DNA from: Ectocarpus siliculosus
Taxonomy: Eukaryota; Sar; Phaeophyceae; Ectocarpales; Ectocarpaceae
Direction: 5' to 3'
Assembly (NCBI GenBank): GCA_000310025.1
Contig: FN649736.1
Coordinates: 3,201,344-3,265,343 of the forward strand
DNA length: 64,000 nucleotides
The translations under genes and the position numbers were made by a program. Shown piece after piece: positions 11,901 to 31,106 of the stretch. How positions within the stretch are numbered: the stretch's first letter is position 1; each line of letters starts with the position of its first letter. Under the pieces are notes generated by a model, which was not told the origin of the DNA, did not search any database, and saw only the letters and a program-made list of their open reading frames with translations.

Positions 11901-14674
11901 GGCATTCTTTGTGTTGCACATGGAAGCAACACCTCCCAGCTATACGAAACAAAGACGACAGTGCCCAGTCTTCCCCACCTCTTGACACTTGATCTTGGTT
12001 TATGCATATGAATTACTGCGGTTGGCAGCACGGCTATGGCCCTCTGCCCGGGGGTTCGCCTTCGACTAGTACGAAAACTCACAAGTTCGTTCGGATTGGT
12101 CAGCATCCCCACCAAAAACGCCGGGGCTCCCGCCTTCAGCATCACTTCCGGCTCCGTTCTGCTCGAGGCTATGGCCATGTTCAGAGCAAACCTCGCGAAC
12201 GTAAAGTCCATCGATGACAACCGAGGCTCGCTTGACGCGCCTACCAGAAACCTGAAAGATTGCATTATTTTCACGATTTCACACACCGGACGCGTTTGTT
12301 TCCCACACGCGTAATCATAAGACAGGGGAAGCGAATGCCTGGGGGGGGGAGCGCTGGATGTTGTTCAAGGAATGAAGGTGCATGAAGAGCAGGCGACCAT
12401 CAGAATTCATAAAGAGCGGGCTTACGGCGCATGCGAAGCACCACCTCCTAATCACCGAATCAAGCCAACGCGGTACCCCCGTCGCACATGCCATAGTTTT
12501 ATGCCGATGTGCTCGGGCAATGAATAACTTGCCCGTTCAGCCACTGGCACAGGATGGCCTTCTCCTCTCTCTCCGAGTCCGCCGTCCGCTTTGCTTCGCG
12601 CATCATGCGATTACCCTTCTTTTCCACCTCGTCGCAGAGTTGTCTGCAGGACGAAATTCGAGCAGTAGACTATACATGAGGAGTCTCGCATGGTTAAAGA
12701 GGCAGCAGGCGGAACGCGAGAGTATAATCACAAGCACCGGTGGCCCTTAATTGTCAAAGGGGCACCTACACGTTGCCGACCTTGCTCAAAAAAGCCTCTT
12801 TTCTTTTTCCAGATAGGAGCAGGGCTTACAATGCGAGCTAAACGGAACCCGACCGGCTGGAGGCCAAAAATAAGCGACAAACGGAACACAACAAAACATT
12901 GTCCTTCTTGTCGTGTGTTGCCGTTACAAGAAACGATGAGTGTGAGGATGGTCAGGTGTGGACGTGCGCACTTTGGTGGTGCGATGCGCGTGGAACGAAC
13001 GGTGTTAAAGGGGCAAGACCCCCCAGTGCAATCGTATTCTAGTGCGCTCGAGGAATACCATCATGTGCCGATGTGTCCGATGACACCCCGTTGATTGTTA
13101 TCTCTGTTGTCTTATGCCACTCTGCTGAATTCGTTGTGTATTTGTTTTTCATCTGTTCAAGGTTGACTCGGGTTTGATTTTCAAGAAATGACCAAAAATG
13201 CGATTGACTCTTTTCGGTCAGGTGCAAGAGTAATGCTCTCGAAAATCGTGGGGATGTGATGCCGTTGATGTAGAAATACGGGCAACCTCAGCGGAAAGCC
13301 TATTTGATAAAATTAGACCATCTGACCAGTCAACGTTGACTTGTCAGATGGTCTAATTTTATCGAATAAAAGATATGCTCAGAGCTCGTTAGCACCCGGC
13401 TGGGACACATGGGCTTGCGAATGAGTAGAGATCTCCGGGGCTGGACCCCTCGCCAGACGCTGATCGATAAATAAATGGCGATTCTTTTGTAAGTGAACCA
13501 CTGGGATTCGAACCCGTGCGTGGAACCTTGTGTAAGAAGAACGCTTTGACCATTATTACCATATAGTGGTCTAATGGTAAAAGTGGACTTAGTGGTCTAA
13601 TGGTAAAAGCGTTCTAACGCAAGGTTCCACGCACGGGTTCGAATCCCAGTGGTCCACTTACAAAAGAATCGCCATTTATTCACCGATCAGCGTCTGGCGA
13701 GGGGTCCGTCCCCGGAGATCCCTACTTCTAAAGAACAAGCTCATGTATGTGTCCCAGCCCGGTGCTAACGAGCTCTGAGCATATTTTTTATTTGATAAAA
13801 TTAGACCATCTGACAGGTCAACAGTCAAATGGTCTAATTTTATCGGCGAATAAAGCCCTGGCCGAAACCAGAGGTGGGCAAATGAAAACAGGGGCCCTCG
13901 GCTAAAGGAAGCTCCAGCGAGGCGCGCGAGCCTCACGCAAAATAGAAGGCACGTCCAGTACATCCAACCAAATCAACACCCACCGCATGTTTCCCTCGAG
14001 CTTGAGCAGCTGCGTGTCAATCTTGTCTATGGTGACGAGCACCTTCTTCTTTACTCGCTGCACAAGCACGCTCAAGGCCTTGTCCACTTCTTGCGCACAG
14101 AACCCTAGAATCTCGCGGTTGCTCGCCTTATCCCCTGCAAAATGCTGGTGATAGACGGGACCAGGAGGTGGCGCCACCGACGGCGGTCGTTACGAAAAGT
14201 GGCGGAGAGGGCTTGAAGGTCCCACACACAATAGAAAGTTCAATCTACATATATATCTGCGCAAAAAAAGCTGGCACTGCGTGCTTGATATTTGCTAGTG
14301 GGCTCTCTTCAGCCTTCGTTCGCATAGTACATCGTAATATTACTGCTGTTGCTGCTGTTGGTGTGGAGGAGTCAGGCCACTTGACATCGACAGCAGCAGT
14401 AGTAGATTACAAGGAGAGTTCGAGATTATGATCGCGTCCGTTTGGTCGCCCTTGATGCGTGTACAACTCTTGTTGTCGCCAACGATTTAAGCAACAGAAA
14501 GTGTTCTCTGTATGCCACGGGTGATTGTAGCATCTCACACATGTTTACCTGCTCTATCTTATGCGCCAGCGAGGCACCCGTGACGGAGACTCGGATCTTT
14601 GACCTCCCTGGATCTTGCTGAACCGTTGGCGCCACATTCCTGTTGCCGCCATCCTGGCGGAGGCGACTTAGTTG
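5761..14674 (-). CDS. Armadillo-repeat protein (multi-exon)
   Basis: Eleven exons read on the minus strand, joining in phase: 14674-14549, 14144-13984, 12251-12083, 11652-11515, 9719-9591, 9309-9169, 8516-8379, 7857-7745, 7526-7390, 6599-6436 and 6159-5761, about 604 residues. Most encode one armadillo-type alpha-solenoid repeat each (for example AFICLANLANNPLNQA, VVRSAARALCSLTLKNQ, ACLALANMAYLNQFAALRLL), with GAG..G(A/G)IP-like turns. The family usually acts as a protein-binding scaffold, but no specific orthologue is recognised. The intron between 6436 and 6159 appears to use a GC donor (GAG|GCATGC). Exon 10 begins with an Ala tract from GCC/GCG repeats. The last exon runs 50 residues past the conserved part, so its end is uncertain. 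The start codon is not located; a first exon may lie between 14674 and 14980, beside the divergent lipase gene. Confidence 0.75.
8881..8920. repeat. (CT)n microsatellite
   Basis: About 20 CT dinucleotides in an intron of the armadillo gene. Confidence 0.95.
9091..9132. repeat. (CA)n microsatellite
   Basis: Interrupted CA repeat just 3' (on the gene strand) of the exon 9309-9169. Confidence 0.9.
10307..10865 (+). repeat. SINE-like composite repeat, copy 1
   Basis: About 380 nt starting CTCATAGTCGTGCATGCC, followed by two 62-nt units containing TGCCAAGCGACGAAAACCC. The same order recurs at 10898-11482, so the block of about 590 nt is tandemly duplicated inside an intron of the armadillo gene. 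A long G run precedes each copy. No ORF is convincing. Confidence 0.8.
10898..11482 (+). repeat. SINE-like composite repeat, copy 2
   Basis: Near-identical second copy of the composite repeat (conserved block about 10905-11290, then two 62-nt units at 11357-11482). It is preceded by a run of about 20 G and followed by another G run. Confidence 0.8.
11728..11790. repeat. CTG/TTG trinucleotide repeat
   Basis: Imperfect GCTGCTGCT then GTTGTTGTT repeat in an armadillo-gene intron. Confidence 0.9.
13305..13844. mobile_element. 540-bp palindromic (foldback) element with tRNA-like core
   Basis: The element reads the same on both strands over almost its whole length. Each end is itself a hairpin (GATAAAATTAGACCATCTGA ... 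and its reverse complement, at 13305-13364 and 13794-13844). Inner arms pair across the centre: GCTCAGAGCTCGTTAGCACC with its complement near 13770, CGCCAGACGCTGATCG with its complement near 13690, and AACCACTGGGATTCGAACCC with its complement near 13645. The centre holds tRNA-like sequence (next entry). It lies in an intron of the armadillo gene. No transposase is present, so movement would need trans-acting enzymes. Confidence 0.8.
13575..13655 (+). ncRNA. tRNA-like sequence with Pol III A and B boxes (degenerate tRNA)
   Basis: TGGTCTAATGG at 13583-13593 matches the A-box consensus and GGTTCGAATCC at 13636-13646 matches the B box. Outer segments TGGAC and GTCCA can pair as an acceptor-like stem. 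However, no seven-base anticodon loop on a five-base-pair stem can be drawn, and the T-stem has a bulge, so I do not call a functional tRNA. A mirrored, more damaged copy lies on the opposite strand of the palindrome at about 13495-13565. Confidence 0.45.
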
Positions 14675-14984: not shown

Positions 14985-17900
14985 ATGCATCGCCGCTGCC
15001 GTACGGCTGTGTACCTTGGCCTTTTCTCCATCGCGGCTTCTCTGAGAGCCGTCTTGGGCGGTCAGCACTTCGAGTATGACGAAGACCTAGGCAAGCTCGC
15101 AGTGGTGAGCACACCTCATTTTCAACAGCAAATATACTGGATAAAGTGTAGAAAATTGGCTAGGAGTCCCCTTTCATTTGCTCAGATGTGTTGCAGCACG
15201 CCCGAGGGTGTATAGGTCCTCGAGAGACGATGTTCACGGGAGAGACACCAGCTCCACGGCCAATGTGAACCTCTTTGCTTGCCGCGAATTTGTCCATCCG
15301 CAGCTACTGTAGCTGCAGTTGACCACCTCCAGCGAGCTCAAACTTGATTGATGACACGCACGAGCGTTTGAACATGGTAACGGTGACTTCAGACCCCCAC
15401 TCAGCTCGGGGCATTTGAGCTTTCCTCTTGTTGAAGCTTGCTTGAGTGCTCTGTCCGGCTGGTAATCTTCGTGCGATGGCGAGAGCTTATTTTTCTACCG
15501 ACTACCGCAGGCATGCCGACAGAATTGTGGCTGGAAATTTTCTGCGAAGATTTTGGACTGCTGCACCACTTACTCTGTATGCATACAGCAGTACTGCTGT
15601 AGTACACTCGCAACGTCCCCATAGACTATTGGTTGTACCCATATGTTTTCGTACGTGTTGGATCTCTCCTCGCTTGAAGGTCGAAAATCCTAGTGTTTGG
15701 ACTAAAGAAAACTAGAGCAGGTCTTCAACTACAGCAGTATTCATTGGCAGCATTGACGACAAGCACCATGGCCTTAGGAGTCACAGGACGAGAGACGGCT
15801 TGGACGTCTTGGGAGAGGCATCTTTATTTTTGTCTGCCCAAGCACGTACATACCGTATACGACACAAGATAACACACCACCTGGACCCATTTTCAAAGCT
15901 CGATTACTCCACGACCAAGATGATGCATAAACGAAACGATATGTTTTCGGGGAGCTCTCAGCCAGACGGCTTCAATGCCGCCGTTTTCGGCACCCGCACT
16001 CTTACTGCTGTTGATAAATCGAGCTTTGAAAATCGGGCCAGGCGGTGTGTTATCTTGTGTCGTATACGGTAGGTAGATACGGTACACCTGGCTGTCGGTG
16101 ATGAACTGCTGTGCGCGTCGTCTGAGCGTCGCGGACGAAAAGAAAGACGTGCACACCCAAATTTCTGACTGCCAACTTTGGATAGTCCGATGATAAGCAT
16201 ACAGCACTTGCCAGGCCCGCGGCGTTCCGTTGCGTACGTGCTTCTATGTGCCTATAGCTACACTCTGACATGTGCGCAATGGATGGAAATTCCACCACGT
16301 GTCCTCGCCGTAGCGGCGATTTCGAAAAAAACAAAATTGTCATTCCTAATTACCCCCCGCCTGTGGCTGAATCTTGGCCGGGCCGGGCTCGGTGTTTTTT
16401 GGCGCAGATCTACAGCAGCGCTGCGTACGACAGGGTGGAAGAGTGGGTGTTCGCCAACCCGGCTTGCAACGAGCAGACGAAAGGGTTCGTCTTCGTTGAG
16501 GTGGGACAGCAGAGTATTTAGTACATGTGGTGGCAGCAGCCCCGGTCGGCCGTGACAGATACACAGACATTGTAGCACCTGCAAGTCTGGTAGTGGCCGA
16601 GGCTGGGGTTCTTGGTTCCTCTTGTGGCCATATTTAGGTTTTTTGTGTAGCTGTAAGTAGGTTTTGGTGTGTAGGGGCTCATCACCCGGCTCGCAACTGG
16701 TGCCCAAGTTCCTCTGTGTTTGATACAATGTTGAGCATCAAGTTTTTACGTGCGGGCGATCTCTACAGCAGTTTGCTTTGTGCCGTCCGTCGGCGGAACC
16801 GGCGGCCGTTAGCGAGCGGGGTCTACGCGTGTGTGTAGAAACTGTCCTCTTTGGTGGCTACCAACGCTCGTGAGCAGTGCATCGACAACCAAAAGAGATT
16901 GGCACAATTGTGGAGATCCCCTTCTGTGGAGGACGGTTCTCTGTTTTCACATTGACACACAAATATTAGATCTGCAGTTGTTGCTCCTTCGGATTTTTCT
17001 ATCGCTTGTCGTGTTTTCATGCATGACGCGAGCGTTTTGTGCGAGCATGCTTGCGGACATGTCGTCCCTAATTTTTTTTGTGTGGATCCTCTCTCTTCGT
17101 CGCCTGCCTGTCTTGTCTGTTTGCGGCACGTTTTTTTTCGGCCACCAATCAGTCGTTCGTCGGCGAGCACACGGACGCGTTCAGCTTCGTCGGAGTGGAC
17201 ACGGTTGGCGAGAGGATCGTTGTGGCTTTCAAAGGCACCACCGACGTACAAGATTGGGTGAGATGATGTCGTGTGGGAGGGCATGTGTTGCTGAGTATAG
17301 GGTGCATGCATTGGGGGGATGTGTGGCTTTCGAAGGCACCGCCGACTTGCATGAGTGGGTAAGGCGTCTCGTGGGCAGGTTTCGGCTGGATGTGTGTAAG
17401 GTGCAGATGTGACTTTCTCAGGCACCAGCGGCGTGCATGATTCGGGTGGGGTGTTGTGGGAGTTTTTGTAGGGTGCATGCATCGGCGCGATAGGAGACAG
17501 AGAGCTGCGAGACGAGGGAGGGCAGACGAGGAGACTCAAGACTTGCGGCGGCGGAGAGGGGAAGGCTCCCTTCTCGGAGAGAGGAGTAATAGACAGAAGC
17601 GGTAGTGGACATGGAAGCTGGCACAGTGCGGCAAAGGGATGCGAGGGCGGGACTGACGGCGTCGTGGAATAATCGACCATGTAACCTGCTGTGCTTCACA
17701 CGAACACGGAGATGGGGGTTGGAACCGCGACATCGACATCACACGCAAAGACAACTTTGGTTGTACTTTTGTCATTGAGAATAATTCTTCACGCGGTAGC
17801 CTGCCCGGGTGAAAGGTGGAGCATTTTTCTCTTTCCTCATTTTAATGCCAAGACGAATTTCCGCGCCTTGTCGTCCACTATCTTACCGTTACGACCTTTT

Positions 17901-20900
17901 TTTGGCGCGTGCAACAATCGTGTTGCAGGTGACGAACCTACGAACTTGGATACACTACACTCATCGCTGCGCGCCGGCGGGGGGGCCAGACACGGTCGCC
18001 GCCACCACCCCCCACCCAGGGGGCGAGGCCGCCGCCCCGGGCCGGCGAGCGGCGGCGGAAATGTCGCAATCGCGTTCGCGTCAACAACATCGGAGACGAC
18101 CGGGGGGTCAACCGGCTGACTTACGGGGGCAAGAAGAAGCGAAGGCCAGCGGCGGCGGTGAAGGCCGGGTTGATGGCAGGCAGGCGGAATCCGGAGCAGG
18201 CCAAGGTGGGTTGTGGGGGCGTGAAACGTTTCACGGCGCTGGGGTAGTCGGGAGGGAGGACGACAACAACAACAACAACAACAACAACCCAGGATCATCG
18301 TCCGGAGTCGGGGGCAGAGATCCGACGGCGGCGGGCTACGCGTCGTCGTCCGCCATGGAGGCGGCCCCACGAGAGCGTGGCGACGCACCCGGAGGAGAAG
18401 GGCCAGGGGCGGGCGACGACGGCGAGGACGACCAGCTGCTGATAGGCAACGTGCACTTCGGCTTCTGCGAGTTCTACCAGACGCTGGTCGCCGAGGGCCT
18501 GGCCGCCAAGGTGCTGCACCTCGCCCGCAAACACCCGACCTACACGATCTTCGTCACGGGGCACTCGCTCGGCGGGGCGGCGGCGGCGGTGTGCGCGGCG
18601 GACCTGGTGGAGAGGCTAGGGGTGGCCAGCGAGCGGGTGGTGCTGTACACGCTGGGGGAGCCGCGCGCGGGGGACGGAATTTTTGCGGACGGGATCAACG
18701 AGCACGTGGTGAGCTATGCATGCGAGCCCTGAGACTTGATGAGAGACTTTTTATATATCTCTCCGGAGTTGTTGTTTTTTGCGGTCGGTCGCTTCGTCTG
18801 TAGGTTTGGGATCATTGGATGTCGTACATGTTGTTGGATGTGCTACATACCCCGCTGCTGTGTGGTGTTCACCGCTTGTTCTGCGTTTCTCCATGCCGCC
18901 GGGAAGTGTGAGCGAGATCGAGGGGACATATGGCCAAGACGTGGTGGCAGTTTCATGCAAGCCCTCGGACAAGTGTTTTTGGATCACCTTCCCCCCCAAC
19001 AGGTGGCCTGCGATTGGCTCGTAACACCGGTAATGGTTACATTTCTCTGAACGGTTTGGGTGTGAAACCGTTGTTCAAGAAGGGTATGCAGGTTATCAAT
19101 GCTTCGTTTTCTTCTGACACATTTTTTTATTGTTTTCGCTGCCGCCCATCCGCCATCCCCACGCTCACGACGCCGTCCGCAACACAGGGGACGGCCTACC
19201 GCATCGTGCACGACAAAGACTTGGTGCCTCATCTGTCGCTGTGCTGCCACGGTTGGCTCGGCAAATGCATAGGTGGGGAGGAGGCATGTCCCTACCAGCA
19301 CAGCACCGAGGTATGTTCGTATTCTTGGTATTAGCATCGACCTCTCTTACGGGCAGACCAATGAAAATACGTCAGTCTTGTTGAGGCTGAAAACAGAAAG
19401 GGTTTCTAAAGGCCATGATCCGAGGCCCGCGATGGGGGCGCCCATGGGGGAGTCTAAGCTACTGCTGTGTGTCGTGTGTTTATCATTTGCATCGACCGCG
19501 CTAATGGGCTGACAAAACTCACAGGGCCTCAGTCTCGACCCGGGGTATGAAGACAGAGTATGTACGCTTTTAAAGGCCATCATGTGCGTGTGCGTGCGTG
19601 TGCGTGCGTGCGCTTCTTTATTTCGCATCGACGGCGCTATGTAACCGACTGGCAACGATGTCACTCTCAGTGTGGGTACTGCAAAGCCTGAAAATTACCT
19701 CCAGAGGCCGTTGTGTGTGTGTGTGCGCACGCGCTTTTTAGTTGGCATCGACCGCGCTAGGTGGTTGAACAACGAATAAAGGCAACCTTCATGGCGGGAT
19801 GCAAAACGCGTGAAGTATGTGCTACTGCAATTTATCACCGAAGCGGATATGCTTGCACGCGGACGGGGCGGGGGGCACGCCCCTCTTCCCGAACCACACA
19901 TGCTGGGTTGAATCATGTAAAATCATTGCACGAAGATTGTGTCTTCTACGTGCTGCTCACACGATAGCACTACATGCACAGCAATTTTCGTCTCAAGGGG
20001 CACGAAGTGAGCACACACACACGCCTTGATCGATCCCGTGTGTCTCCCGCGTTTATGATTTTTTTTCTTCTTCTCTGAGTGCGAAACCATTGAAACCGCC
20101 TGTTTTTTTGTTCTTGTTTTTTTGTTTTGTGCAGATAGTGTACGCCAACGACATGAGCGACGGATCCCCCTGGATTCAGTGCAACGACACGGTCGGAGAG
20201 GACTACGCATGCGATCCCCAGGTATCTTGTCAATCTCTCTCTCTCTCGATGTCTCTGTCTCTGTCTGCATGTATCTCTCTCTCTCTCTCGGCTTTGTTAC
20301 CCGTTGTGTGCTTGTTGTATGGTCCATGCACAACAGCGTGTCCATTGTCCCCCCAACACAAAGGTGCGGTTGGTACACTGTTCTCGAGGTAGACATGGTT
20401 GATCCGAACTCCAAAGACACCGGCAAACGCACCTTCTCCAGGCGCATCTTTCTCCAGAGACGTTTTGTTGTTGTTTTTTTGTTTTTTTTTCATATGTCTA
20501 GGGCCAAGATCGCGAAAAAATTCCCGTCGTTTTGTTCGGAGAACAAAACCTTACGCAAACGATTCGTCTCAACAATACAAAAAGGCAGGTTGTTTGCTTG
20601 GTCGAGAAAAACTCTGTAGCTCGAGACATTCCACTTTATGTCCAACACTCAAATTTTACTTCAAGTCTTCAAGTTTTTTTGCTCCACAATAACTTGAACG
20701 TGGAATGGGGTGTCAATTTGTTTTAGAAAGTAAACATAACCTCACAGAAAGACTATTTACCCGTTCGAGATATAACCTCAGTCGAAAGGGATTTTTTTCT
20801 TCAGACCTATATTGTTTGCCTTGATGAGGGTTTCACTAGCTGCTGCGGCACTGCTGCTGCTGTTGCTGTCTGTCATAGCCGGGTGTTGGCTGCCCCCCCC

Positions 20901-29600: not shown

Positions 29601-31106
29601 GCAACAACAAACAACAACAGCCGAACGCCGGCCTCCTCCAATCCCACCCACACCTACCTGAGGTTACTAAAGTGTCGGATGAGGCAGGGGGGGAACACGA
29701 AGAGCACCGCCATGACGGGCGTCACCACCGAGAAAGACGCCCACCACACGTCGCTCGCCGTGCCGCCGAACCACTCCAGCAGCAGCGAGCCCGTCAGAGA
29801 CCCCACCAGGATAACGTAGGAGCACACGTCCCCGAAGTTGCACAGCACGATGGCGGCGTCCACCGCCAACGGGCCGAGGGGACCTACGGTCTCTCTCGCC
29901 AGTTGGGCGAACTCGATGTCGTCGAGGCGGTCGGCATCGCCGCCGCCCCCGCCCCCTCTTCCTCCCGCCAGCTCGCTGGGGCCGTTGTCGCTACTAGTGC
30001 CGGTTCGGGCGTACCCTTGGGGGAATGAAATCTCGGAGGCGTTGATGAGCACAACGATGCCGAGCCAGATCGCGACGGCTGCCGGGCGGGGGAAGGGGGG
30101 GGCGATCGCTGGGGTTGAAGTCGTGGTCGTGTGTGGTACAGCAGCAAATAGTATGCTACGATGCTGCCGCCGTGTCGCAACCACGGGGTTCAACAAATGG
30201 TACCAAGCGCAGGGTGCAAGAACGGAGGTGTGGAAATGAACGCACACATCGAGAGGCGTGCGTTTGTGAGACAAGCCGGTTTTTGAGTTATTTGTAAGTG
30301 AAAGAGTTGTCGGGTTGTACATGTCAGATGGATACAAGTAGTCTTACAGGAGTAACTGCCGTCACCGACGTATGATGAAAAATTGTGGTGCCGGCGGCGA
30401 TAAACCTGCCATGTTAGGTGATCAAGTATCGCTCACTGCTGGCCAGGATTAAAACATGTCGACTGCTGGTGTGACACCGATGACACACCTTCTCACCCAG
30501 AGCATCCGCAACTTCGAGAGGCAGCGCGGTTGGTCCTTCGGTCACTGCATCGATAAAAAGCTGACCCACGACATGATGCGGGGAGAATAGCGAGGATTTC
30601 GTATCTCTACAGCCGCGCAAGGCAGAATGGCTGTGGGAAAGGGACCACTACCAATAACACGTGGCAGGGATACGCCAATCACGCTACAGCAGCAGCAGGG
30701 AAGAAGGCGTAATACCTGAGACAGCGTAGAGGATTGTTGCCGGGCCGATGCCGCTCCCTTCGAACACCTGCGGGGAATTCAGAATGCCAGACCCGATCAT
30801 GTAGTTCAGGACGAGGAGGGTGGTGAGCACCTTGCTGTTGTCTCGGCGACTGCTGCCCGGGGCGAACACGTCGGTCGAGTCGCCGAGGTTCCGCCCACCG
30901 TTGCCGTCGTCGGTTGACCCCAGGAGCAGCGGTTCACGCTCCGAGGCGGGGCGCTCACGCCCGGCTTCCTCTCCGCCGTGCGCTCTCGCCTCTCGTGCCA
31001 CCCGCGGTTGCTCCGCATTTGGACCCTTGCTTGCCTTGCCGCTCCCGCCCCGGACTCCGGTCAGCTTGTCGCCCTTGGTCGTGCCATAGCGACGCTGCCC
31101 GGCCAT
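25628..31106 (-). CDS. SLC38/AAAP-family amino-acid transporter
   Basis: Minus-strand exons joining in phase: 31106-30716, 30078-29658, 29047-28808, 28028-27957, 27789-27672 and 27203-27057 (463 codons), then an exon from about 26387 into the N gap. GVAVDIAGY and a stop at 25657-25628 may be the C-terminus. A hydrophilic N-terminus of about 95 residues precedes the first helix with GSGILNSPQVF, the hallmark of AAAP permeases. Later helices include AVDAAIVLCNFGDVCSYVIL, NLGSIVFALSCAPAVLHAY, a short exon with WALGVGVCLCYSMGLAGYLSF, and DITGG...FVLPGLIYL. The family moves amino acids across plasma or vacuolar membranes, often with protons or sodium. Phase fails by one base at the 27057/26387 junction, near homopolymer runs, so either a small exon is missing or the sequence has an error. 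Confidence 0.8.
25658..26216. other. Assembly gap (559 N)
   Basis: The gap removes part of the last exon or exons of the transporter. Flanks have G and A runs (26400-26452), which suggests a difficult template. Confidence 0.97.
27283..27325. repeat. (CAG)n repeat in transporter intron
   Basis: About 14 CAG/GAG units in the intron between exons 27672-27789 and 27057-27203. Confidence 0.95.
28253..28632 (+). repeat. SINE-like repeat, copy 3
   Basis: Third copy of the 380-nt block seen twice near 10307-11290 (starts CTCATAGTCGTGCATGCC), here in a transporter intron. G runs flank it on both sides, as in the other copies. The 62-nt units are absent. Confidence 0.85.
29565..29622. repeat. (CAA)n repeat
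   Basis: About 18 CAA-type units in a transporter intron. Confidence 0.95.

Follow-up and report, generated by a model that had tools for sequence, protein, structure and literature searches.

What kind of entity is the large palindrome in contig FN649736.1 of the brown alga Ectocarpus siliculosus (assembly GCA_000310025.1), and does it move? The window, by which we mean the whole stretch of 64,000 nucleotides that was analysed (positions 3,201,344 to 3,265,343 of the contig), was the subject of an earlier note made from the letters alone, which placed a near-perfect palindrome at 13305-13844, with a hairpin of the same arm at each end and with the A and B boxes of RNA polymerase III (Pol III) genes on one arm and a damaged mirror copy on the other, and which suggested a mobile foldback element built from two inverted tRNA-like modules. 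The palindrome is indeed real and slightly larger, spanning 13301-13852 between two copies of the target-site duplication AAGCC, its end hairpins do share an arm, of 21 nt, and the plus strand carries both boxes, whereas on the minus strand the A box is damaged and the B box intact. The element is furthermore multi-copy, flanked by 5-bp target-site duplications and without recognised coding capacity, in agreement with the suggestion of a mobile foldback and clearly at odds with the single copy without duplications that the note would have taken to indicate a local duplication. The reading that we consider probable is that of a non-autonomous mobile element of the cut-and-paste type, having a foldback or miniature inverted-repeat transposable element (MITE) architecture, palindromic ends and a Pol III-type cargo.

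Dispersed copies and target-site duplications

In the 189-Mb host assembly that was searched, where the window is G000:C11:3201344-3265343, element DNA occurs as at least 165 matching pieces spread over many contigs (40 of 157 candidates were scored), and the 21-nt end arm of the type found in the window, H1, has 173 matches at up to two mismatches versus none for the reversed control. In viral contigs the 20-nt end arm is without an exact match and in prokaryote genomes it has one (L072), and a viral or bacterial origin was rejected on these counts. The small contigs G000:C400, C404 and C361 (15-20 kb) carry what is seemingly one palindrome element and are probably haplotype or assembly duplicates.

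Target-site duplications were sought in the window and 99 loci, 100 stretches in all, by comparing every left end with every right end for a repeat directly outside, L001-L008 being left out of the counts as the same places are covered by later cuts. Exact 5-bp duplications flank 29 of 200 end pairs, at 28 loci, versus 366 of 98,000 shifted comparisons (0.37%). The AAGCC pair of the window copy adds to these 29, since the window, whose right end has a small insertion and was for that reason missed by the pairing script, was not counted; in this copy only, a 6-bp duplication, AAAGCC, fits equally well because the last base of the element is A. Two of the loci, L010 and L011, lie on one contig with the common duplication TCAGA and may represent one event. 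When longer repeats with jitter were allowed, a few 6- and 7-mers were found, which we interpret as 5-bp duplications with one or two adjacent bases that happen to match. No strong target preference is seen in 35 duplications, only a weak G....C.

Measured from duplication to duplication the copies are 67-1245 bp long, plus one of 3335 bp that holds a nested pogo-like element. The shortest among them are bare palindromes of 67-76 bp having duplications of their own, of which there are nine (L014, L050, L053, L059, L065, L073, L102, L145 and L163); the palindromes of L045, L095, L097 and L147 adjoin a module end. At L014 an 812-bp pair was rejected as an element, being a local duplication of element and flank in which at least 34 bp of host sequence (500-533 and 1244-1277) are repeated before a second identical 68-bp palindrome, and only the 68-bp palindrome was counted.

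Palindromic ends and the modules between them

The ends fall into three H types, H1 (TATTAGATAAAATTAG..), H2 (TAATCGCGGAACTAG..) and H3 (TAATCGGTAAAATTAG..), and a family V of the same build, which consists of TGTTGAGAAGCACGATAACCACTAGACCACTAGTCAGC followed by its mirror image. The H2 arm has 61 and the family V arm 273 matches, each versus none for the reversed control. The H types terminate in TA..TA and family V in TG..CA (TGTTGAG..CTCAACA), the outer termini differing by family as TATTAG, TAATCG and TGTTGAG, whereas an inner core, TAGACCA-12 to 40-TGGTCTA, is found in 187 places versus two for the reversed pattern (about a quarter of the places being listed). Since this core is common to all types, the inner part with its A-box sequence has a wider distribution than the termini. 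Family V was exposed by a pattern aimed at tRNA genes (tRNA-Val) and comprises loci L133-L145 and L159-L178 (for example G000:C3:4344241-4344653, C8:181004-181463 and C241:219498-220046); A boxes are carried by its end arms, and some copies have a B-box-like GGTTCGAATCT beside one end. Duplications of 5 bp are found at L133, L140, L145, L160, L162 and L163, that is at 6 of the 46 loci from the family V search (the shifted control was made for H pairs only), which include the overlaps L152/L162, L148/L177 and L138/L176 and of which several outer ends may lie beyond the cut stretch.

The two arms of a palindrome change together. In H1 and H3 taken together (31 distinct palindromes of 68 bp), 94.0% of the pairs match, compared with 83.5% in shuffled data, and both sides are changed in 84 cells versus a mean of 27.9 (maximum 38 in 300 shuffles), a figure that is inflated by the pooling of two subfamilies. 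Family V alone (12 distinct) has six double changes versus 1.5 (maximum 4), and H2 alone (nine distinct) has two versus 0.9 (maximum 2), which says little. The test used distinct sequences only, the 92-row list of palindromes holding some of them twice.

The outermost palindromes may enclose no module at all, a single one or several in either orientation, and most modules are bordered by a whole or half palindrome, as exemplified by the head-to-tail array of L018, by L041, L062, L031 and L027, and by the head-to-head window copy. Copies like L041 have a second type of head, whose B-box region aligns by eye with that of the first (GAGTTCGAATACC versus GGGTTCGAATCCC). When the two end palindromes were compared in 22 duplication-bearing elements, 8 were inverted, 9 direct and 5 tied; direct orientation is favoured by L133, L023 and L081 and inverted orientation, more strongly, by L077, L019 and L041. 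This count replaces a tally that favoured inverted ends (14 of 22, with 4 direct and 4 ties) and was skewed by the use of too short a fixed interval.

The window copy consists of two inverted modules of about 200 bp, each comprising a tRNA-like head with A and B boxes, a body and a T-run, and it is bounded at both ends by a palindrome of 64-68 bp that forms a separate hairpin (Table 1). Each half thus runs from its own palindrome through a body of about 125 bp to the head, and both heads meet at the centre, pointing outwards. The inverted arms comprise 115 nt (93% complementary) and 76 nt (95%), and a 550-nt strand folds at -407 kcal/mol versus a shuffle mean of -149 (z -40; none of 100 shuffles as good). 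No open reading frame of at least 180 aa is found in the element, and the four stop-to-stop frames that were scanned (61-98 aa) have no Pfam match. The left half is 91% identical over 254 bases to another locus and 82-84% identical to its own partner, so that the arms were not freshly copied from each other, and judged by these identities the window copy looks as if it was assembled from two older modules.

Table 1. Features of the palindromic element, in window coordinates
Feature	Position	Strand	Remark
Left target-site duplication AAGCC	13296-13300		Length as in the family-wide 5-bp duplications
Left end palindrome, type H1, 68 bp	13301-13368		
T-run (TTTT), outer end of left module	13368-13371	-	T-run closes 58 of 69 scorable module copies
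Left module body	13369-13489	-	84% identity to right body
Left tRNA-like head	13490-13561	-	B box intact, 13504-13514; A box damaged, TGGTAATAATGG, 13550-13561
Central partial tandem duplication of A-box region (family D1)	13564-13583	+	Partial A-box copy, 13567-13577
Right tRNA-like head	13581-13660	+	A box TGGTCTAATGG, 13593-13603; B box GGTTCGAATCC, 13636-13646
Right module body	13661-13788	+	
T6 run, possible Pol III terminator	13784-13789	+	Directly before right end palindrome; position conserved
Right end palindrome, type H1	13789-13852		Small insertions/deletions
Right target-site duplication AAGCC	13853-13857		

Pol III-type features and predicted transcripts

The A and B boxes, as judged by their general consensus, are well kept. 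Conservation in the 48 fuller heads reaches 98.3% for the A-box and 98.1% for the B-box columns versus 91.0% for the remainder, and the A and B windows are among five that tie as the most intact of 68 (41 of 48 copies). Across all 77 head-bearing copies of both head types the values are 0.93 for the boxes, 0.85 for the whole head and 0.91 for the body, so that the contrast with the body is slight; the A box fits the consensus in 52 and the B box in 46 of these copies. Of 99 family V arms 83 were kept; TRGYNNARNNG is matched by 66 of these and the commonest form is shown by 40, and the most variable positions of the family V A box, R2 and N5, are both degenerate ones, while N6, N9 and N10 hardly vary. 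On the strength of these sequence features, transcription of the modules by Pol III is plausible, albeit not proven.

Neither ARAGORN nor Rfam calls a tRNA in the window element. A tRNA-Val fold called by ARAGORN in one array copy under relaxed settings carries no weight, because the same settings give 4621 hits over 48 sequences. A parent tRNA was sought in 20 regions at Rfam tRNA hits (63 hits; 63 of 5081 candidates scored) and with ARAGORN on 33 sequences, in which it finds 25 tRNAs, all inside the 20 Rfam regions. The longest match of a head to these 25 tRNAs is 10 nt (L125, E 0.8) and none is donor-like; the 16-nt head matches that appear in the comparison are family V loci. Two side observations concern the tRNA hits themselves: G000:C295 (L131) is organellar-looking with a dense tRNA cluster, and part of G000:C17:5797970-5798443 has tRNA hits with the scores and spacing of C295 and is perhaps an organelle fragment in the nuclear assembly.

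The earlier note had furthermore expected a Pol III transcript of the element to fold into a long duplex, and this expectation is not borne out. The two heads of the window copy are divergent, and the predicted RNAs would end at the T-runs 13784-13789 (+) and 13371-13368 (-), before the end palindromes are reached, so that two RNAs of the same sense would result. The predicted 208-nt transcript folds like its shuffles (z +0.80; 160 of 200 as good), and only read-through of the whole element would give a long duplex. A microRNA precursor was likewise rejected, since the Rfam matches to mir-1245, MIR6440 and others are far below the gathering scores and reflect the hairpin only. Other short hairpins near palindrome elements (L036 933-1000 and L067 927-995) also have weak Rfam microRNA matches and are apparently unrelated in sequence.

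Competing explanations and known relatives

We envisage that the mobile ends are the palindromes of 64-76 bp, each being two end arms back to back, and that a DDE-type transposase or integrase, supplied in trans and cutting with a 5-bp stagger, would act on the outermost arms and move whatever lies between them, be it nothing, as in the bare palindromes, one module, or several in either orientation. The cargo module would derive from a tRNA, have a type-2 Pol III promoter (A and B boxes), end in a T-run as terminator and probably give rise to an RNA of about 200 nt. Duplications of 5 bp directly at inverted ends argue for a DDE enzyme and against retroposition of the type carried out by long interspersed nuclear elements (LINEs). 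In common with MITEs, the elements have terminal inverted repeats and target duplications of fixed length and are short, non-coding and multi-copy, and in common with foldbacks they are self-complementary over most of their length with a modular interior; long terminal inverted repeats of short tandem repeats are not found in the window copy.

Several observations weigh against this explanation. An exact 5-bp duplication is missing from 171 of the 200 end pairs, partly because internal and broken ends entered the count, and among the 29 positives two come from the duplicated L014 and one (L111) lies inside an AG repeat. The bare-looking palindromes L061 and L098 have no exact duplication, and in one batch of 13 loci from the family V search, four of them H-type, none has one. 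The A box in the arms of the H-type palindromes lacks its last G, and the Rfam tRNA model finds no match in the heads of 8 loci up to an E value of 5. Finally, no autonomous partner was found, the 58 exact H1 arm hits including three opposite-facing pairs 1-10 kb apart.

Of the candidates for such a partner none was convincing. At L048, where 3.3 kb separate matching ends flanked by the duplication GATAG, the interior is a separate pogo-like element, nested there and having 25-bp repeats and a TA site of its own. This transposon (L048 796-3844 and L068 2236-6397; terminal inverted repeat CAGAACCGGCCCGCAC) is multi-copy elsewhere and matches DDE_1 in Pfam, with HTH_Tnp_Tc5 and C2H2 below cut-off. 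At L049 the exact ends, 2.2 kb apart, are not flanked by a 5-bp duplication, and eight frames give two sub-cut-off Pfam matches to unrelated families. The pair at C3:3496502-3505808 is two separate elements (L045 and L052), and the family V pair L159 (G000:C2:8454517-8462197, 7.7 kb) has an interior that reads N and no matching 5-bp flanks. Among the encoding-copy candidates examined, no integrase-type transposase is linked to palindrome ends.

How much of the above could be explained otherwise? The elements might form an ordinary MITE family that picked up its tRNA-like sequence a single time and now carries it along untranscribed as a dead passenger, the well-kept boxes reflecting only recent common descent. 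This we regard as doubtful though deserving of serious attention, since the body is nearly as conserved as the boxes, the head is not recognisable as a tRNA, and N6, N9 and N10 of the family V A box are near-invariant even though the consensus lets them vary; but only three other windows of the head are as intact as the A and B windows, and none more so, and the two most variable sites in family V are precisely degenerate ones in an A box that most arms retain. Another explanation would make the Pol III promoter itself the mobile unit: a 66-76-bp palindrome of two tRNA-like 5' halves, with an A box in each arm and the start region at the centre, would be both divergent promoter core and transposon end, and the modules enclosed by palindromes would serve as interchangeable Pol III cassettes. 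TFIIIC or TFIIIB bound at the inner A-box palindrome could then join in end recognition, a role suggested by the inner palindrome being kept while the outer termini differ. We find this unlikely, since the H-type A box is incomplete and the centre of family V varies more than its outer arm, although there the anchor used selects for a conserved outer arm.

Somewhat less likely still is a miniature retroelement of the long terminal repeat (LTR) type, resembling terminal-repeat retrotransposons in miniature (TRIM) or small LTR retrotransposons (SMART), in which the palindromes would be the LTRs, a bare palindrome a solo LTR, palindrome-module-palindrome a full copy and arrays with shared palindromes tandem copies, inserted by an LTR-type integrase with a 5-bp stagger. 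The TG..CA termini of family V together with the 5-bp duplications, the series of solo, full and tandem architectures, the direct ends of L133, L023 and L081, and the absence of any edge for inverted ends in the 22 elements compared agree with it, but the H-type termini are TA..TA, both module orientations occur within one element, L077, L019 and L041 favour inverted ends more strongly, and neither a primer-binding site nor a polypurine tract was noticed, albeit without a systematic search. That a short interspersed nuclear element (SINE) was moved by LINE reverse transcription and later became palindromic is very improbable: the tRNA-like head with both boxes, the body and the T-run are SINE-like in anatomy, but duplications lie directly outside the ends at 28 loci and are fixed at 5 bp, no 3' tail, A-rich or of simple repeats, is seen in the inspected copies, and bare palindromes without any SINE module have duplications of their own. 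Seen alone, the window copy might even pass for a local, non-mobile inverted duplication of a tRNA gene, which the dispersed copies with their target duplications render next to inconceivable.

The mobile element with palindromic ends and Pol III-type cargo that we favour has partial counterparts among known systems. Foldbacks such as FB and Galileo have long terminal inverted repeats made of short tandem repeats and duplications of about 7-9 bp. Together with Tm1 of the Mutator/Foldback group they resemble the present elements in their long inverted repeats and modular, variable interiors, but here each end is a complete palindrome and the duplications are 5 bp. The tRNA-derived SINEs share the A and B boxes and the layout of head, body and terminator, and differ in the 5-bp duplications, the lack of a visible tail and the palindromic nature of the mobile ends observed here.

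The closest published parallel found, as far as the consulted part of PMC6887750 goes, appears to be MER6, a Mariner-derived MITE carrying a SINE V domain, so that there too a sequence of SINE type has spread within a non-autonomous DNA transposon with inverted repeats; the cargo of MER6 is however a SINE domain, whereas here it comprises a head bearing both boxes plus a T-run, combined with palindromic ends and 5-bp duplications. Integrase-type transposons, according to the parts of PMC2836005 and PMC10045372 consulted, have TG..CA (TGTNR) or TA..TA termini, both kinds occurring in IS3EU/GingerRoot, and duplications of 4-5 bp in Ginger2/TDD, where Ginger2 prefers AT-rich RTATAY targets, and of 6 bp in IS3EU/GingerRoot, which recalls the TG..CA (family V, beginning TGTTG) and TA..TA (H) termini and the duplication length found here. 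The RTATAY preference is however not seen in our 35 sites, for which reason the elements are not filed under Ginger2, and the 6-bp duplications of IS3EU/GingerRoot differ from our 5 bp. A paper of 2025 on the transposable elements of Ectocarpus reports, in the text consulted, 51 'DNA/Unknown' and 94 'Unknown' families in a brown-algal genome of about 200 Mb (PMC12477816), and the palindrome elements might lie among these. Words starting with palindrom, hairpin or tRNA do not occur in the main text of that paper, and judged by titles and the opening lines of abstracts no described match was recognised in the open-access literature.

If correct, our reading implies a group of related mobile-element families with complete palindromes of only 64-76 bp as ends and a Pol III-type gene as cargo, joining the cut-and-paste lifestyle of MITEs and that of SINEs in one element and offering a natural system for asking whether transposition is chosen or driven with the aid of Pol III factors. 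It also entails a warning for annotation, since the end palindromes attract weak microRNA-precursor matches and the heads carry the boxes of tRNA genes, and neither label fits. The neighbours of the element in the window comprise, by Pfam, an Ion_trans/PKD channel (974-2431, +), a class 3 lipase (17809-18732, +) and an amino-acid transporter (29654-30337, -).

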